Of a stretch of DNA of 38,271 nucleotides, positions 26,994-34,964 are shown in pieces (the stretch's first letter is position 1; each line of letters starts with the position of its first letter). Where the stretch lies: contig DATIZR010000088.1 in assembly GCA_035516965.1 (NCBI GenBank), forward strand, positions 1 through 38,271. Direction: 5' to 3'. The notes below the pieces were generated by a model. That model was given only the letters and a program-made list of their open reading frames with translations. It ran no database searches and was not told the DNA's origin. The stretch is from Nitrospirota bacterium. GTDB taxonomy: Bacteria; Nitrospirota; UBA9217. Made by a program: the position numbers and the translations under genes.

Positions 26994-28373
26994 TCACTTC
27001 GGTTCCTGCAGTTTTCCGAATGCTTTCAGAACGACCTCGGAGAGGGCCGGATGAATGTGCATTCCCTTGGCCACGGACCACAGGTTGCCGTCAGCAGCCA
27101 TGGCATTCACGACCTCCTGGATCAGGACCGAGGCCTGCGGACCGATGATATGGTATCCCAGGATCTTACCGCTCTTCCGGTGCACCACGGTCTTGGTGAA
27201 CGCCTCGGTCTCCATCATCGCTTCCCCGCGGGCCACATCGGCATACCCGGCCTTTCCCACGAGGACCTCCTGCCTTCCCATGAGTTTGATCGCCTGGCCT
27301 TCCGTAAGCCCCACCGAGGCGATCTCCGGATAGGAGAATACGGCATGGGGCACCGTCAGATAATTCATGCGTGATTTCTTTCCATGGAAGGCATTATGCC
27401 AGACGAGTTCAGCCTCGTGGTTCGCCGCGTGCCTGAACATCTTCCTGCCGATCGCGTCGCCAAATGCCCAGATGTCCTTCTTCGTGGTTTCGAAAAAGTC
27501 GTCCACGACGATATAGCCCCTATCGTCCGTTTTGATGCCGCTGTTCTGAACCATCAGCACGTCGGCATTGGACCGTCTTCCCGCTGCGATCAAGAGCGAT
27601 CCGGCCGCCACCTCGATAATCTTTCCGCTGTTCTGCTGCCGGGCCGTGACCGTCACGACCTTCCCGGTCTGGCGAACCTCGGTCGCCTCGGTGTCGGTAT
27701 GGACGGTCATGCGCCGCGAGAGCGACCGGAGCAGCAGGTCCGAGATCTCCGGCTCCTCCTCGGTCACGAGGCGCGGATTTCTCTGTATGATCGTGACGTT
27801 CGTGCCCATGGCTTCGAAGAAGTGGGCGAATTCGGCAGCGATATAGCCGCCGCCGACGATGACCATGCTGTCCGGACGTTCACGGAGCTGGAGCGCGCTT
27901 TCGTTCGTGAGATACTCGATGCCCTCGATGCCTTTCAGCCGGGGGATGAGCGGGCGCGCTCCGGTGACCAAGAAAATCGTCTTCCCCCTAATCGTTGTGC
28001 CGTTGACTTCGACCTCGTGATCTCCGGTGAACTGCCCCTCGCCGGAATAAAAATCGAATTCCTCCGCCTTGTTCAGGGATTCCTGGATGAGATCGCGGCT
28101 CTTTTGCACATGCAGGCGCATGCGCTCCATGATCGCTTTGAAATCGATGTCTCGTATCTCGGCCCTTATCCCGAGCTTTGCCGCTTCCCTGATCTCGACT
28201 ATTCTATCCGCCGGATAGACCATGATCTTGGTCGGGATTCAGCCGACGTTCAGACAGGTCCCGCCAGCAGGGCCCCGGTCCACAAGGGCAACGGTCTTGT
28301 TGTGGGCGAGGGCGTCTTCGAGCAGGTTCGCGCCGCTGCCCGAACCGATGATGATCACGTCGTATTCTTTCAT
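26994..28373 (-). CDS. FAD-dependent disulfide oxidoreductase, predicted selenoprotein (MerA/Lpd-like)
   Basis: A 459-residue flavoprotein of the dihydrolipoamide dehydrogenase/mercuric reductase group if the in-frame TGA at codon 45 is read as selenocysteine. Residues 1-44 hold the FAD motif IIIGSGSG and GGTCLNVG, then TGA, then IPTK, so the redox pair is Cys40-Sec45. Downstream are the NAD(P)H motif VIVGGGYIAAEFA, the second FAD motif DIWAFGDA, and the dimer-interface HIHPALSEVV with catalytic His and Glu. Without recoding the frame would start at ATG 28223 and lose the FAD site and active centre, which is implausible given the intact remainder. GGAG precedes ATG 28373. It lies 90 bases after addA on the same strand. 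The physiological disulfide or metal substrate is unknown. Confidence 0.88.
28203..28219 (-). promoter_or_regulatory. SECIS-like stem-loop
   Basis: On the mRNA strand TCTATCC-GGC-GGATAGA forms a 7-bp stem with a GGC loop. The loop begins 26 bases after the TGA, within the range of bacterial SECIS elements, and has the required G in the first loop positions. Flanking GATC segments can extend the helix. It recruits the SelB elongation factor in known systems; that role here is inferred. Confidence 0.7.
28239..28241 (-). other. in-frame TGA read as selenocysteine
   Basis: Codon 45 of the FAD oxidoreductase, exactly at the second cysteine of the GGTCxNxGC redox motif. The frame is intact on both sides. 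The gene's own stop (26994-26996) and many neighbours also use TGA, arguing for local recoding. Confidence 0.85.
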
Positions 28374-28463
28374 ACGCTCCGTCCTGCAAAATAAGATTGC
28401 GCCGATCGTTCTCTAATTCTATCATGTTTAAGCGGGGAGTCAATGCAAGGTCAGCGAGGAAGG

Positions 28464-31400
28464 CTACGTTTCTGCGCAGGGCGTCAGGGTGCTGCTGTCC
28501 AGGAAGAGGAGGTAGCCGGTCACGCTCGTAAGCCCGAAGATCTCCTTGACCGCCTCGCAGTATATCTGTATCTGAGGACGATAGTGGTTAACCCAGGAAG
28601 CCAGGGCTTGGTCATTATCGATCTGGATCGCCTTGTAATCGACAACCTGTCCTTTCCCGTCCCGAATCACAACGCGGTCGATGATGCCGCTCACGAGTGA
28701 GTACCCCCTCCTGTACAGAAAAGGAAGTTCAGAATGGGCACCAGGCTTCCTCTCGAAGACCCAGGCGAGCGAACCGTTCTTGAGCACCCTGTCGAGGACT
28801 GAGCCGGCATCGTCGAGGAACAGCTGGCACTCACCCGCCGGCAAAGCAAGGACGTCCGGATATTCGGCGGCGATTCCCGCAATATCATAGGACCCGGACT
28901 TGGTAAACTCCTCGAGACAGCGGTGAAGCACGCTGCCGCGCGTGATCGGCGAAACAGTACGTGCCACGGCCTGGGGAGCGGGAGCGCCGATCGGTTCTTC
29001 AGGAGGAATATAGTCAGTCGCCTTCTTCCACTCCGGCGCCTCGGACCGCGGAAGGGGGGCGAGATTGTCGATGACCTTCCGAAGGTTGATTTCATCGGCC
29101 TCCGGTGCAGCGTGCCGGTCCTGTCGGCCGCCCCGGGGAGTCTTGTCTAGGACAGGAAATGACACGCCTGGCGGGCAGGCGTAGAGCGTCAAACCCGACT
29201 CCGATGGGACAGCCCGGTCCAAGAGCGGCCCTGGCCTGGCATCATGGAGATAGGACAGCCACGTGTTCTGCTTGACCGGCGTTGAGCCTGCGTTCAGCGT
29301 CCCGATCATCACGAGATGGTCCCGCGCTCGCGTCATGGCAACATACAGCAGCCGCTGGTGTTCGCGAAGGAGCTCGTCCCGTTCCCGCCCCCACAGCTCG
29401 TCATAGATCGGACTTTCTGCGTCTTTGACGGCCATGCGCACACCGCCTCCGGTATCCTCCAGGATCGCGGGGGGGCCCGCGGAAAGTGATTTGGACTGCT
29501 GGTTCATGCCGGGCAGAAATACGACGGGATACTCGAGCCCTTTGGCCTTGTGAACGGTCATGATGCTCACTGATCCCTGAAAGCCGGGAAGGTTCATGCC
29601 GGCCGTTGCCTCACGCTGCTCGGTCTGCCGGATGCTCTTGACCCATTCGACAAAGTCCTGCAGCGTGGTGTACCCTCTGCGGTCGAACTCGCGACCGGTG
29701 TCGAGCAGTTTGTCGATATTGAAGATCGCCTGCGGATTGTTCCTGCCGAAGCGGATGTAGGCGCCGGATTCGTTGACGATTCTCTGCATCAGGCGTGAGA
29801 GCGGGACGAGGCCTGCAAAGCTCATCCAGCCATGCAAAAGCTTCCCGATGTCCGGACGTTGATGATTGACCCCATCGATCACGGCGCCGTCGGCCCGCAG
29901 GAGGTCGAAAATGTCCCTGTCCGTAAGACCGAAGAGGTCGGACTTGAGCGCGGCTGCGAGGCTGAGCTTGTCATCATGGTTCCAGAGGAAGAAGAGCACG
30001 TTCATGATCGCCCGTATCTCGTCCTCTTCATAAAAGCCGATGCCGCCGACCACGCGATAGGGAATGTTCTGCGCCTGGAGTGACGCCTCATACTCCTTGA
30101 GCCTGGTCCGCGACTGGATGAGGACGGCGCAATCGCCGAACGCCGCGGGGCGCGCATTCCATCCGCCGTCTGAAGCGCTCCCTCCGCCGGATTTTTCGTA
30201 TACCGTCGTTCCGGTTCCTACGAGTGACGTTATGGCGCACGCGAGCACATCCGCCTCGGTGTAGTCGGAAGACGTCCCGCCCGTATCCGGCAGGAGTTCG
30301 ATGAGCCGTACGCTGCCCCGCTGTTCCCTGCGCTCGATTTCGGACGGTTGATACGCCTTTCCCCAGATCGCGGTGAAGACGCCGTTCACGGTCTCAATGA
30401 TCTCGGGCGTCGAGCGGAAGTTCCGGTCGAGCGTCAGGATTTCCCTCGATTCATGCGGCAGATTCCGCATCATTTTCTGCCGGACATCCTCCATCAGACG
30501 ATAGTTCGCTTCGCGGAAACGGTAGATGGACTGTTTCTCATCGCCGACCACAAAGAGCGTGGACGGCATGCGCCTGTCCACGCCCTGGCCTGCGAAGAGC
30601 TCTTCCGTCAACTTGTTCAGGATGGCCCACTGGATGTCGCTCGTGTCCTGGAACTCGTCGACGAGGAAGTGGAGTATCTTACGATCGAGCCAGTAGAGGA
30701 TGTCGGCTGATTCTCCGGTCTGGAGCAGGCCGTAGGCGTAGATCTCGAGGTCGTCGAAATCCAGCAGGCCTTCCCTGAGCTTTGCGGCTTGGTAATGTTC
30801 TTCCGCCCTCTGGAACAGTCTGAGCAGGCTCATGGCCTCACGTCCTGCGCGCGCATGCGCGTACAGCGCGCGGTATCGTTCGAGCAATGCCTGGAGGGCG
30901 AAAAAGGCTTTCTCGTACTCTGTCCGTTCCTTCCCCGCGAAGGCCTTTTTGGCGATAGAAGGATTCTTGCGCGGTTCTCCAGCAGCGGTAAAGTAGACCG
31001 GCGAAAGTGAATTCGCAATCATGCAGGCGGCATCGGGGTCCTTTGCCGCGACGAGCAGGGCATGTTCTTCCCCCTTGCTTGAGTCATACCGGTCTCCCTG
31101 GGTTCGCAGGATGCGTTCCATCTGCTGAAGCAGCGAACGCCATTGCACGCTCGTTGTCAGTGACTGGATCACTTGTTCCGTCCGGTCAACTTCCATTCCG
31201 CGCCGGACTGAGCGGAGCATGCCCTCCGGTCCGCCGGCATCGATCTCCATCCGCTTCAGCCTGCTCCTGATCGACAGCAGAAATTCGATCGTCGCCATGA
31301 GGTCATCCGTCGTGAAGTCCCTGAGCGGATCCATAAGGACCCGGTCACGGTCGGATTCCTCGAGAGCATCTTCGATGGCCTGTTGGATCTTGGATGCCTG

Positions 31401-31775
31401 GTCACGGGCGTCGAGCACGCCAAAGTCGGGCGGCAGTCCTGCTTCGAGAGGATAGCGCTTGAGCAGGTTCATGCAGAAGGAGTGGATCGTCGAGATGCGG
31501 AGGTCCTGACTGCCCCGGATGATCTTTTTGAGCATGGCCTCGGGCAGGTCGCGCAGCACGCGCTCTTTGATCTCCGCGGCGGCCTTATCCGTAAAGGTGA
31601 TGGCCACCGCCTGGTCAATGGCGAGCCCGCTGTTGTCGAGCGCGTCGAGGAGAGCGAGGTAGCGGTCCTTGAGCGCGCGGGTCTTGCCCGATCCGGCAGA
31701 CGCCGAGAGATGGACGGATTTTCCCGTGTCGGCGGCGCGTCGGTTAGTGTTGTCCGTATCGGTCTTCTTTGTCAT
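28464..31775 (-). CDS. addA: AddA-like UvrD-family helicase-nuclease
   Basis: A 1103-residue double-strand-break processing enzyme. Helicase motifs are Walker A ASAGSGKT (25-32), Ia AITFTDKAAAEIKER, II VDEFQDTS (near 370), III VVGDEKQSIYRFR, V MTVHKAKGLEYPVVF, and VI LYVAMTRARDHL. The C-terminal PD-(D/E)xK nuclease has GSVLHRCLEEF and GIIDRVVIRDGKGQVVDYKA (Asp and Lys near 1045). This helicase-plus-nuclease layout is that of AddA. The gene for a partner nuclease lies directly upstream, 96 bases away, on the same strand. In characterised systems the complex resects DNA ends for RecA loading, often regulated by Chi sites. The ribosome site before ATG 31775 is weak. AddA is the best name, though a RecB-like label is possible. 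Confidence 0.85.
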   Translation of the reverse strand: MTKKTDTDNTNRRAADTGKSVHLSASAGSGKTRALKDRYLALLDALDNSGLAIDQAVAITFTDKAAAEIKERVLRDLPEAMLKKIIRGSQDLRISTIHSFCMNLLKRYPLEAGLPPDFGVLDARDQASKIQQAIEDALEESDRDRVLMDPLRDFTTDDLMATIEFLLSIRSRLKRMEIDAGGPEGMLRSVRRGMEVDRTEQVIQSLTTSVQWRSLLQQMERILRTQGDRYDSSKGEEHALLVAAKDPDAACMIANSLSPVYFTAAGEPRKNPSIAKKAFAGKERTEYEKAFFALQALLERYRALYAHARAGREAMSLLRLFQRAEEHYQAAKLREGLLDFDDLEIYAYGLLQTGESADILYWLDRKILHFLVDEFQDTSDIQWAILNKLTEELFAGQGVDRRMPSTLFVVGDEKQSIYRFREANYRLMEDVRQKMMRNLPHESREILTLDRNFRSTPEIIETVNGVFTAIWGKAYQPSEIERREQRGSVRLIELLPDTGGTSSDYTEADVLACAITSLVGTGTTVYEKSGGGSASDGGWNARPAAFGDCAVLIQSRTRLKEYEASLQAQNIPYRVVGGIGFYEEDEIRAIMNVLFFLWNHDDKLSLAAALKSDLFGLTDRDIFDLLRADGAVIDGVNHQRPDIGKLLHGWMSFAGLVPLSRLMQRIVNESGAYIRFGRNNPQAIFNIDKLLDTGREFDRRGYTTLQDFVEWVKSIRQTEQREATAGMNLPGFQGSVSIMTVHKAKGLEYPVVFLPGMNQQSKSLSAGPPAILEDTGGGVRMAVKDAESPIYDELWGRERDELLREHQRLLYVAMTRARDHLVMIGTLNAGSTPVKQNTWLSYLHDARPGPLLDRAVPSESGLTLYACPPGVSFPVLDKTPRGGRQDRHAAPEADEINLRKVIDNLAPLPRSEAPEWKKATDYIPPEEPIGAPAPQAVARTVSPITRGSVLHRCLEEFTKSGSYDIAGIAAEYPDVLALPAGECQLFLDDAGSVLDRVLKNGSLAWVFERKPGAHSELPFLYRRGYSLVSGIIDRVVIRDGKGQVVDYKAIQIDNDQALASWVNHYRPQIQIYCEAVKEIFGLTSVTGYLLFLDSSTLTPCAET

Positions 31776-31871
31776 CGTTCTGCAGGTGAATCGTCGGGAG
31801 ATGATGAACGCCTGGATGAAAGGTCATCATTCGTGTCGGGGCAAAGTAAGCCATGCACCTGCCACGAATGT

Positions 31872-34800
31872 TTATTCCGCGCTCCCGCACATCATCTCAT
31901 TCGGGCAGTAACGGCACTTGTTCGCATCCCTGGGTGTGCCCGGGAAACTGCCTGAAAGGATGGCCTCGACCGCCTGGCGGGCCTTGTCCATGCTCTGGGC
32001 AAGCAGCGCCTCGAAATCCCGGGCACTTCTCGGACTCGCTTTCGGTCTCGATGACGGGTGATCATCGCGGGCGTCCCGGTCAAAGAGCACGACATCGCGC
32101 GCTCCCGCGCCTGTTTTGCCCGCAAGATCGTAGTAGACGAGTCCGATCGGTTTCTTGAGGGCAGGTTTTGTGTCGAGCAAGGCCTGTTGCGCCATGACCG
32201 CGTAGACCGGAAGCTGGAAGATGTCCTGGTCGCCGTTCATTTTCGGGAGAGGATATTTGCCGGTCTTATAATCCACGATCATGAAGTTGCCGTGCTCATC
32301 CACGTCGATGCGGTCGATCCTGGCGGAAAGCCCGGCTTCCGCTCCGCTTGCAAGGAGCAGACGATAGTGTTCGATCTTCTGCTCCAGATAGGCCGGCTTC
32401 ATGCCCTGTTTCCAGAATTCTTCCTCGGCATCGAGGAAGCGCTCCACCATCACGGTCAGGAAGAGGTCCTTTTCGCGCCTGTTGCGGAAGGTGTCGGCTT
32501 CAGTGTCAAAGGCGGAATCAGCGAGTTTCCTTAAGAGCGCCCGTGCCTCGTCACGGTGCTCCCGCGCAACCGGCCGGGTCCATGCAAGATAAAAATTACG
32601 CAGGATTGCGTGAACCTTGCTGCCGCGGTCCAGGGGGGAAAGGTCTTCCGTCACTTCCTCAAGGGGCTCTATGCCGAGCACCGTGGTAACGTAATAGTCA
32701 TAGGGACAGGAGAGATAGGCGTCCAGTTCCGTTACCCGGAAATCCCTTTTGGCGGCGGGGGCGAGCACCGGCAGCGACGCCGCGGGTTTGTAGCCGACGG
32801 CAGATCTGATTCCTGCTATTCCTTCGATGTCCGCGCTCAGGAGGTTCGGCAATCCTTTCCTGTCTCCGGCGAGGCTGATCGCTTTTGCCAGTTCGGGCAT
32901 GCTGCTGCTGTCTTCTATCTTCAGGCTGAACTGGATGGCCGAGGTCGTCTTCAGCAGGCCGGCTTTCTTCAGCGGTGTCAGTTCCTCCAGAAAGGGGGCA
33001 GGTACCGCGGGCCGGTCGCCTTCATTCTCGGGATAGGTGAGGGTGACCTTATCGGCCGAGAGGAGAAGACGGTAAAAATGGAAGGCCGCCTTCAGCCGCG
33101 CCCGCTCGAGGGTGCGTACGCCCATGGCCTCGAGGGTCCGCTCGGGCAGGAAGATGTTCTGCGGCAGACGCTGGGGGAACCTCCCGTCCACGAGCCCCCC
33201 CAGATAGATCTCTTCCCAGGCGTGGCTCAGGCTTTCTTCGAGGCCCAGGATCTGCACGCCGCCCTCGTCCTCGGGCGGAACCTGGTACCGTGCGTGCAGG
33301 AAGGTCTTCTTCAAGAGGAAGAGCCATTCGTTGAAGGTGTAGCGAAAATCCGGGAAGGTCGTGCCCGCTTGAGCGAGCGACGTCATGGTCTCGTTCAATT
33401 TCTTGTAAGCCTGCAGGTTGATATTGAGCGGGCCCTTGATCAGCTCGACCCGTGCGCCGAGCCCGGACCAGGCCAGGAGCGCCGAAAGCCGTTCCATCCA
33501 CCGTGAGAGCGGCGCGGCATCGCGCTCGGAAAAGGGCGCCAGGGCGGTAAAGAGGTCCTTGACCGGAGCGGTCAGGATATCTCTTCCCCTGACCCCGGTC
33601 GTCTGATGCGAGAGCGCCGAAAGAAGCGTCTGCCTGCCGCCGGTTACTTTCCTGCTGCGCATGAGCCTGTCGAGCGTCGGAGCGATCATCGGGCTCTCGC
33701 TGAACTTGAGAAAGGGGGAGTTGAAGACCCGTAACAGCGAAGGCCCCGAGAAATCCTCCTGGCAGGAGTGCAGGAGCGAGATCACGGCAGTGGCAATGGG
33801 TGAGGTGCCGAGCTGCCTCCCGAGCGCACGGTTGTAAGGGATTCCATAGTCGGTGAAGATTTCCTCAACGAGCGGGCCGTAGTCGTCGAGCGCAGGGAAC
33901 GCAACCAGGATCGAGTCGGGAACGGTCCCGCTCTTGAGCGACTTTTTCACTGCTCCCGCGATGAGGGAAACTTCTTCGCGGGTATTGACAGCAGAGAGCA
34001 GGCTTATCTTCTTCGAGAAGGAGGAGGGATCCGGAGCCTGCGCCGCGATCTCGGCAAAAGGCTTGTCAGAGAACAGGGCCGACGCGAGGTACAGATCGTC
34101 GGAGCCCTCAGCCGACCCGCCGTGATCTGGCATGATGCCGATGCCGGAGAGGAACTCTCTCGTGATCCCGAGCGGATGAAGGTCTCCCGCACGGTTCAGC
34201 AGGCTCGAAGAGGGCGCCTCCACGACATAGGTGCACTCGCCGCAAGCCGCCACCTTCCCGAGGATGTCCGCTTCGGTCTTCGTCGCGTCCTGGATGCCGT
34301 CGATGATGATCGCACCATAGTGCGACAGCCACGCGGGGTCGAAGCGATCGCGAAGAATGACGCGCATCCCGGCGGGATCGGTCAGATCAGCGTCTCGCAG
34401 GGCCTTCTCATACCGGTCATAGACGTCAATGAGCAGCGATACCTGCGGCTTGTCCGAGAAGTCCGATCCCTGGATTCTCAGGGTAAGGTCAGCGGGGCTC
34501 ACTCCTGCGGCGGATAACTGCTCGATCATCTTCGCGAGTGCCGAGGAGAGCGATGGCGCAAGCAGGTCGGGACTCGGGTTGAACCGGGCATCCCGGGCGA
34601 GCCGCTCTTTGACCAGACCTTCGAGCAGCACGAGCCTGCTGTTCTCATCGAGGAGCCGCGGGCCGTGAAGGCGCGGGTATTGGCGCTGCAGAAACTGGTG
34701 GAGCGTCTGGATGTCGGGCTGTACCAGGGCCCGGGCCCCGGTCATGCGCTCGAGCGCATCGAGGAAAATGCGTCCGTATACCCGCTTCAACCGGGAAGAG

Positions 34801-34964
34801 GGAACAAGAATGAGAACGTCGTTATAGACGTGCGGCGGATGCGGCCGGGAGGCGATGATCTCCTCGAGGAGGAGTTTCTTTTCTTCCCAGCCGGTCTTGC
34901 CGAAGGGCACAATGATCGATCGCATCGGTTCGGTGATTATGCCATAATTGAAAGTCATTGACAA
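31872..34964 (-). CDS. addB: AddB-like PD-(D/E)XK nuclease
   Basis: A 1030-residue partner of AddA. The N-terminal helicase-like part is degenerate: VPFGKTGWEEKKLL occupies the Walker A place but lacks a proper GxxGxGKT, so ATP hydrolysis here is doubtful. The C-terminal nuclease has SARIDRIDVDEHGNFMIVDYKTGKYP (active site near residue 894). A cysteine in YLSCPYDYY (near 751) plus three in CRYCPNEMMCGSAE at the C-terminus make the four ligands of the AddB-type [4Fe-4S] cluster. The start could be ATG 34964 or ATG 34925 (MRSIIVPF); neither has a good ribosome site, and 34964 lies within the divergent ferredoxin promoter, which slightly favours 34925. Confidence 0.82.
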   Translation of the reverse strand: MSMTFNYGIITEPMRSIIVPFGKTGWEEKKLLLEEIIASRPHPPHVYNDVLILVPSSRLKRVYGRIFLDALERMTGARALVQPDIQTLHQFLQRQYPRLHGPRLLDENSRLVLLEGLVKERLARDARFNPSPDLLAPSLSSALAKMIEQLSAAGVSPADLTLRIQGSDFSDKPQVSLLIDVYDRYEKALRDADLTDPAGMRVILRDRFDPAWLSHYGAIIIDGIQDATKTEADILGKVAACGECTYVVEAPSSSLLNRAGDLHPLGITREFLSGIGIMPDHGGSAEGSDDLYLASALFSDKPFAEIAAQAPDPSSFSKKISLLSAVNTREEVSLIAGAVKKSLKSGTVPDSILVAFPALDDYGPLVEEIFTDYGIPYNRALGRQLGTSPIATAVISLLHSCQEDFSGPSLLRVFNSPFLKFSESPMIAPTLDRLMRSRKVTGGRQTLLSALSHQTTGVRGRDILTAPVKDLFTALAPFSERDAAPLSRWMERLSALLAWSGLGARVELIKGPLNINLQAYKKLNETMTSLAQAGTTFPDFRYTFNEWLFLLKKTFLHARYQVPPEDEGGVQILGLEESLSHAWEEIYLGGLVDGRFPQRLPQNIFLPERTLEAMGVRTLERARLKAAFHFYRLLLSADKVTLTYPENEGDRPAVPAPFLEELTPLKKAGLLKTTSAIQFSLKIEDSSSMPELAKAISLAGDRKGLPNLLSADIEGIAGIRSAVGYKPAASLPVLAPAAKRDFRVTELDAYLSCPYDYYVTTVLGIEPLEEVTEDLSPLDRGSKVHAILRNFYLAWTRPVAREHRDEARALLRKLADSAFDTEADTFRNRREKDLFLTVMVERFLDAEEEFWKQGMKPAYLEQKIEHYRLLLASGAEAGLSARIDRIDVDEHGNFMIVDYKTGKYPLPKMNGDQDIFQLPVYAVMAQQALLDTKPALKKPIGLVYYDLAGKTGAGARDVVLFDRDARDDHPSSRPKASPRSARDFEALLAQSMDKARQAVEAILSGSFPGTPRDANKCRYCPNEMMCGSAE

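Follow-up and report, generated by a model that had tools for sequence, protein, structure and literature searches.

In the latest published inventory, from 2026, which covers 119 prokaryotic selenoprotein families, no two-cysteine (C-x4-C) disulfide reductase is listed (PMC13188914). The nearest entries are CoA-disulfide reductase (TIGR03385), with the motif UGxP, and a subtype of sulfide:quinone reductase (NF049943), with the motif HxxU (PMC13188914). The inventory also mentions a groundwater-MAG study with potentially novel candidate selenoproteins (PMC13188914), and an earlier sighting of a C-x4-U reductase in that study is possible. We did not find a C-x4-U reductase in the literature that we searched. 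In mammalian thioredoxin reductase, selenocysteine (Sec) lies in a C-terminal GCUG tail, and the CVNVGC site is all cysteine.

Here we describe a gene that is very probably a selenoprotein gene of an apparently unlisted family. The window (the whole 38,271-nucleotide contig DATIZR010000088.1, from an uncultured Nitrospirota bacterium, that was analyzed) contains, at 26994..28373 on the minus strand, a gene for a putative FAD/NAD(P)-dependent pyridine nucleotide-disulfide oxidoreductase. If TGA is translated as Sec (U), the protein has 459 amino acids, and it matches the domains Pyr_redox_2 and Pyr_redox_dim. The sequence shows a Shine-Dalgarno-like GGAG (28377..28380, minus strand) 3 bases 5' of the ATG at 28373. 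The active site reads GGT-C-LNVG-U-IPTK, so that the TGA takes the place of the second cysteine of the pair. By sequence and alignment, the TGT codon at 28254..28256 (minus strand) encodes the first active-site cysteine, which is the interchange or distal thiol. The in-frame TGA at 28239..28241 (minus strand), the predicted Sec codon for residue 45, aligns with the second cysteine, which we take to be the FAD-proximal charge-transfer residue from the chemistry of glutathione reductase and dihydrolipoyl dehydrogenase; this assignment relies on the alignment, as opposed to a structure of the protein itself. At the C terminus, the alignment shows an intact HPALSE base motif (H441-P-A-L-S-E446; 27036..27053, minus strand), with the catalytic-base histidine and glutamate, which matches the HPALAE of mycothione reductase.

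The protein is homologous over its whole length to the mycothione reductases and dihydrolipoyl dehydrogenases (NF004947, TIGR03452, and TIGR01350), and it shares their C-x4-C site, their FAD and NAD(P) domains, and the C-terminal HPxxxE. Its best solved relatives are mycothione reductases. In contrast to our protein, these are cysteine enzymes, and it scores just under the cutoff for NF004947 and well under the cutoffs for the others. Specifically, the closest NCBIfam model is NF004947 (dihydrolipoyl dehydrogenase), at 590.6 bits against a cutoff of 592 with U scored as C, while the score for TIGR03452 (mycothione reductase) is 374.4 bits, which does not reach the cutoff of 635.7. The CoA-disulfide reductase selenoprotein is also a flavoprotein disulfide reductase with an active-site Sec next to the flavin, but it belongs to a different branch: our protein scores 75.2 bits against TIGR03385 (cutoff 578.8), and it has C-x4-U-IP instead of UGxP. 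The sulfide:quinone reductase selenoprotein is likewise an NAD(P)/FAD oxidoreductase with Sec, but its motif differs, and NF049943 is not among the best 25 NCBIfam matches of our protein. Mammalian thioredoxin reductase belongs to the same flavoenzyme superfamily and contains Sec, but here, Sec would replace a member of the CxxxxC pair itself.

In the bSECIS model (Zhang and Gladyshev, summarized in PMC13188914), the loop has 3-9 nt with a G at position 1 or 2, the upper stem has 4-16 bp, the spacing from the UGA to the loop is 16-37 nt, and the energy is -7.5 kcal/mol or lower. The first-pass annotation of this DNA had described a 7-bp stem with a 3-base loop beginning with GG at 28203-28219. 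We confirmed this hairpin on the minus (mRNA, coding) strand, where the sequence is TCTATCCGGCGGATAGA, or TCTATCC-GGC-GGATAGA. The 5' arm (28219-28213) and the 3' arm (28209-28203) form 7 Watson-Crick pairs with no mismatch around the loop GGC (28212-28210). As had also been claimed, there are 26 nt between the in-frame TGA (28241-28239) and the first loop base, which is inside the range of 16-37. So, as in the model, an in-frame UGA is followed by a stem-loop in the coding region. In all 7 of the genes with a TGA at this position (see below), the loop is GGC, with G at positions 1 and 2, and the upper stem is 7 bp in the window's gene and 7-11 bp in its relatives. The hairpin differs from the model in that its stem is nearly invariant across species and is overlaid on the conserved codons for YPADR. 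Also, its energy is borderline without the flanks: -6.7 kcal/mol for the bare 17-mer, -7.5 kcal/mol for a 23-mer, and -9.5 kcal/mol for a 42-nt segment, in which the stem is partly rearranged. In the folds, there is a possible lower SECIS helix with GAUC/GAUC closing pairs (28190..28231, minus strand), whose details vary between species: the lower stem of the sister species is similar to that of the window's species, and those of other species differ.

Taken alone, the hairpin is weak evidence, and it is unexceptional among the TGAs of the window. Of the 1,283 TGAs in the window, 23 precede a 7-bp Watson-Crick stem that satisfies the bSECIS limits, and with G-U pairs permitted, the count rises to 81. 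When checked with RNAfold, as the first-pass annotation had proposed, the hairpin is present in the minimum-energy folds of the 58-, 68-, and 101-nt contexts, but it is only mildly stable (z-scores of -1.6, -1.4, and -2.9, respectively). Across the species with the TGA, comparison to shuffled sequences gave z-scores of -0.5 to -2.4, which are unremarkable in most species, and for G006, the minimum fold of 51 nt favors a different pairing. Because the z-scores are too weak, we dropped the energy-based argument for a SECIS element. We take the significance of the hairpin to come from its conservation in relatives and not from its own stability.

To identify relatives, we searched all 14 genomes of the class and 395 genomes of the phylum. 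We found TGA at the codon for the second active-site cysteine in 7 Nitrospirota species: G000 (the window's genome), G001, G004, G006, G011, and G012, as well as one paralog in G008. These proteins are 49-77% identical to the window's protein. Within the class, G003, G005, G007, and G009 have cysteine forms (TGC or TGT), as does every more distant homolog that we read. Our comparison set comprises 7 TGA genes and 55 cysteine homologs that align at the TGA. In about 400 genomes of the phylum that includes G397 (a Dehalococcoidales MAG), we found cysteine forms only and no TGA form. Apparent in-frame stops in the distant homologs from G220, G276, G352, G232, G145, and G388 proved to be ordinary terminal stops of proteins with cysteine in the active site, and a TAG in the G008 paralog is its terminal stop, not an internal codon.

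The hairpin is conserved along with the TGA. Its core, CTATCCGGCGGATAG, is kept exactly in 7/7 TGA genes. Codons +8 to +11 after the TGA are 100% identical in all pairs of TGA genes, as compared to 53% synonymous identity across the gene, and this region ranks first of 378 five-codon windows for synonymous identity. Cysteine homologs from the same subfamily show no such constraint: codons +9, +10, and +12 vary freely, and the aspartate at +11 is mostly encoded by GAC, not GAT. A stem of at least 6 bp in the register of the hairpin is found in 7/7 TGA genes but in just 1/55 cysteine genes (Fisher p ~2e-8, uncorrected for phylogeny). Pairwise dS downstream of the TGA is at least 0.8 among the TGA genes, a divergence at which common descent by itself would probably not account for the identical hairpins.

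Since both arms are codons for Y-P-A-D-R, the support for the hairpin comes from the choice of codons, not from the residues. The first-pass annotation had considered the hairpin to be independent support for Sec insertion. This is right as to codon choice, but the support is not fully independent, because the arms encode conserved residues. It had also suggested a check for compensatory changes. With RNAalifold, we found covariation at a single outer pair (U-A, U-G, or C-G across species) and almost none otherwise, as would be expected given that the arms lie in the conserved Y-P-A-D-R codons. Because the rest of the stem is invariant in the TGA homologs, the correct test is synonymous constraint in TGA genes versus cysteine genes, and this test is strongly passed. 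The TGA-linked conservation and the fit to the bSECIS model both support the original reading of the hairpin as a selenocysteine signal.

Alternatively, the TGA could be a recent nonsense mutation, or an assembly error, in the gene for a cysteine enzyme, and the hairpin could be a by-product of the Y-P-A-D-R codons. TGA is one base away from TGC or TGT, close relatives do have cysteine, and hairpins of this size follow some TGAs by chance (the 23/1283 mentioned above). But the TGA recurs in 7 species whose proteins have diverged to the extent given above, and there is purifying selection downstream: dN/dS beyond the TGA is 0.13-0.30, which implies that the part beyond the TGA is translated and that the whole protein is under selection. 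A sequencing error is excluded, as at least four of the assemblies from TGA species trace to sampling projects that carry separate names. Also, given each gene's own codon usage, the hairpin codons (TAT CCG GCG GAT AGR) would be improbable (p ~0.018 for the window's gene and 0.002-0.026 for the 7 TGA genes), yet they are present in all 7. As the TGA and the hairpin recur in independent assemblies, we consider a mutation or error to be refuted, with almost no probability remaining.

A few cysteine homologs have related hairpins. In L071 (G320:C61), codons +7 to +12 form an equally good hairpin, CTGTCC-GGC-GGACAG, with a compensatory change from A-U to G-C. This may be what remains of an earlier Sec gene, or it may be due to chance. 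L016 and L017 (3001-4365 and 3001-4368, respectively), which have TGT, retain TATCCGGCGGATA, with a 5-bp stem. In the small MAGs that carry these two genes, we did not find selB above the curated cutoff. Both are labeled as Deltaproteobacteria, but the phylum sample centered on one of them (G395) is identical to the sample centered on the Dehalococcoidales genome.

If the UGA did stop translation, a second protein might restart at the ATG at 28223, within the SECIS region, to give a split enzyme, and the window does contain a frame of 409 amino acids that starts with ATG. However, this ATG is not conserved: the TGA homologs read CTG CTC GTC, CTC TTG GTC, or ATG CTC ATC. Furthermore, the downstream piece would lack the FAD-binding fold as well as one of the active-site residues. 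We consider a split enzyme to be very improbable.

Given a UGA that is read through, the genome of the window encodes what is required for inserting Sec. It contains tRNA-Sec (C42:279-373), selA and selB together on one contig, and selD, which has an in-frame TGA of its own. There are also two fdhA genes with TGA. The genome has two different selA-selB pairs, in G000:C42 (L001) and G000:C71 (L002), and one of these contigs is cut within selB; this is either a real duplication or contamination by a related strain (contamination is 2.95%). In G006, the SECIS region of selD contains a hairpin, GGTCC-GGC-GGACC, that has the apical UCC-GGC-GGA in common with the hairpin described here. RNAfold favored another pairing in this region, and the likeness is only suggestive.

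Because Sec insertion is predicted from the sequence, one can also ask if the UGA is read by some other route, such as near-cognate suppression (which would yield tryptophan, cysteine, or arginine) or a reassigned code. But the gene itself and several of its relatives have TGA as their terminal stop, so UGA is not globally reassigned. In addition, the bSECIS-type hairpin is conserved only where the TGA is present, the residue that is replaced is a redox cysteine, and the Sec machinery is complete. We give readthrough by another route only a very slight chance, and we return to Sec insertion.

The state of the active site seems to have changed often. In a quick tree, the 7 Sec genes require at least 5 changes of state, and the Sec gene from G008 lies in a different paralog group, in which all of the other members that we read have cysteine. 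Either repeated loss of Sec (to cysteine) or repeated gain could explain this. One can readily picture repeated gain, since synonymous changes alone could recode YPADR, 8-12 codons downstream of the UGA, into the hairpin. The Sec and cysteine forms also appear to interchange among the species of a single genus, with no change of chromosomal place. Loss of the machinery does not account for the cysteine form, as G005 and G007, which are cysteine species from the same genus as the Sec species G006, have selB. In G006 itself, the Sec copy and a cysteine paralog are about 2.3 kb apart, with typA in between (L159:6058-10905, in G006:C21). In the second paralog group (L106, which is G008:C209, and L077), HAFP replaces HIHP at the catalytic-base motif, so that phenylalanine stands for the histidine before the proline. 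L106 carries the TGA and the same hairpin.

In several species, the gene's neighbors include TypA and a class II aldolase-like gene, and across the species that we examined, the gene context did not indicate a clear pathway. In the window, two large AddA/AddB-like genes (with UvrD helicase and PD-(D/E)XK nuclease) are directly upstream on the same strand (28464-34964, minus).

Our computations show the hairpin, its TGA-linked conservation, translation past the TGA, and a genome that encodes the full Sec machinery. The hairpin is most likely a bacterial SECIS element, and we are highly confident that it is functional and that the UGA is read as Sec in a C-x4-U flavoenzyme. We propose that these 17 nt form the apical portion of a bacterial SECIS in the mRNA. 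SelB, with Sec-tRNA-Sec and GTP, would bind this element, and the UGA, which lies 26 nt before the loop, would then be decoded as Sec instead of as a stop. The predicted product is a dimeric flavoenzyme of the glutathione reductase/dihydrolipoyl dehydrogenase/mycothione reductase type, with a C-x4-U active site. Electrons would flow from NAD(P)H by way of FAD to a Cys-Sec selenenylsulfide and on to a small disulfide or a similar substrate.

On balance, we favor the view that these genes form a new selenoprotein family: a C-x4-C pyridine nucleotide-disulfide reductase in which the FAD-proximal charge-transfer cysteine is replaced by Sec, perhaps having arisen repeatedly by recoding of YPADR, with swapping of Sec and cysteine within a genus. 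Automatic annotation would truncate or split such a gene. If we are correct, then the bacterial selenoproteome gains an apparently unlisted type of enzyme, and the family offers a clean case of a SECIS element that arose inside a conserved protein motif through codon choice alone. It would also place Sec beside the flavin in a glutathione-reductase fold, where any change in charge transfer or redox potential could be tested directly by comparison with the natural cysteine versions from sister species.
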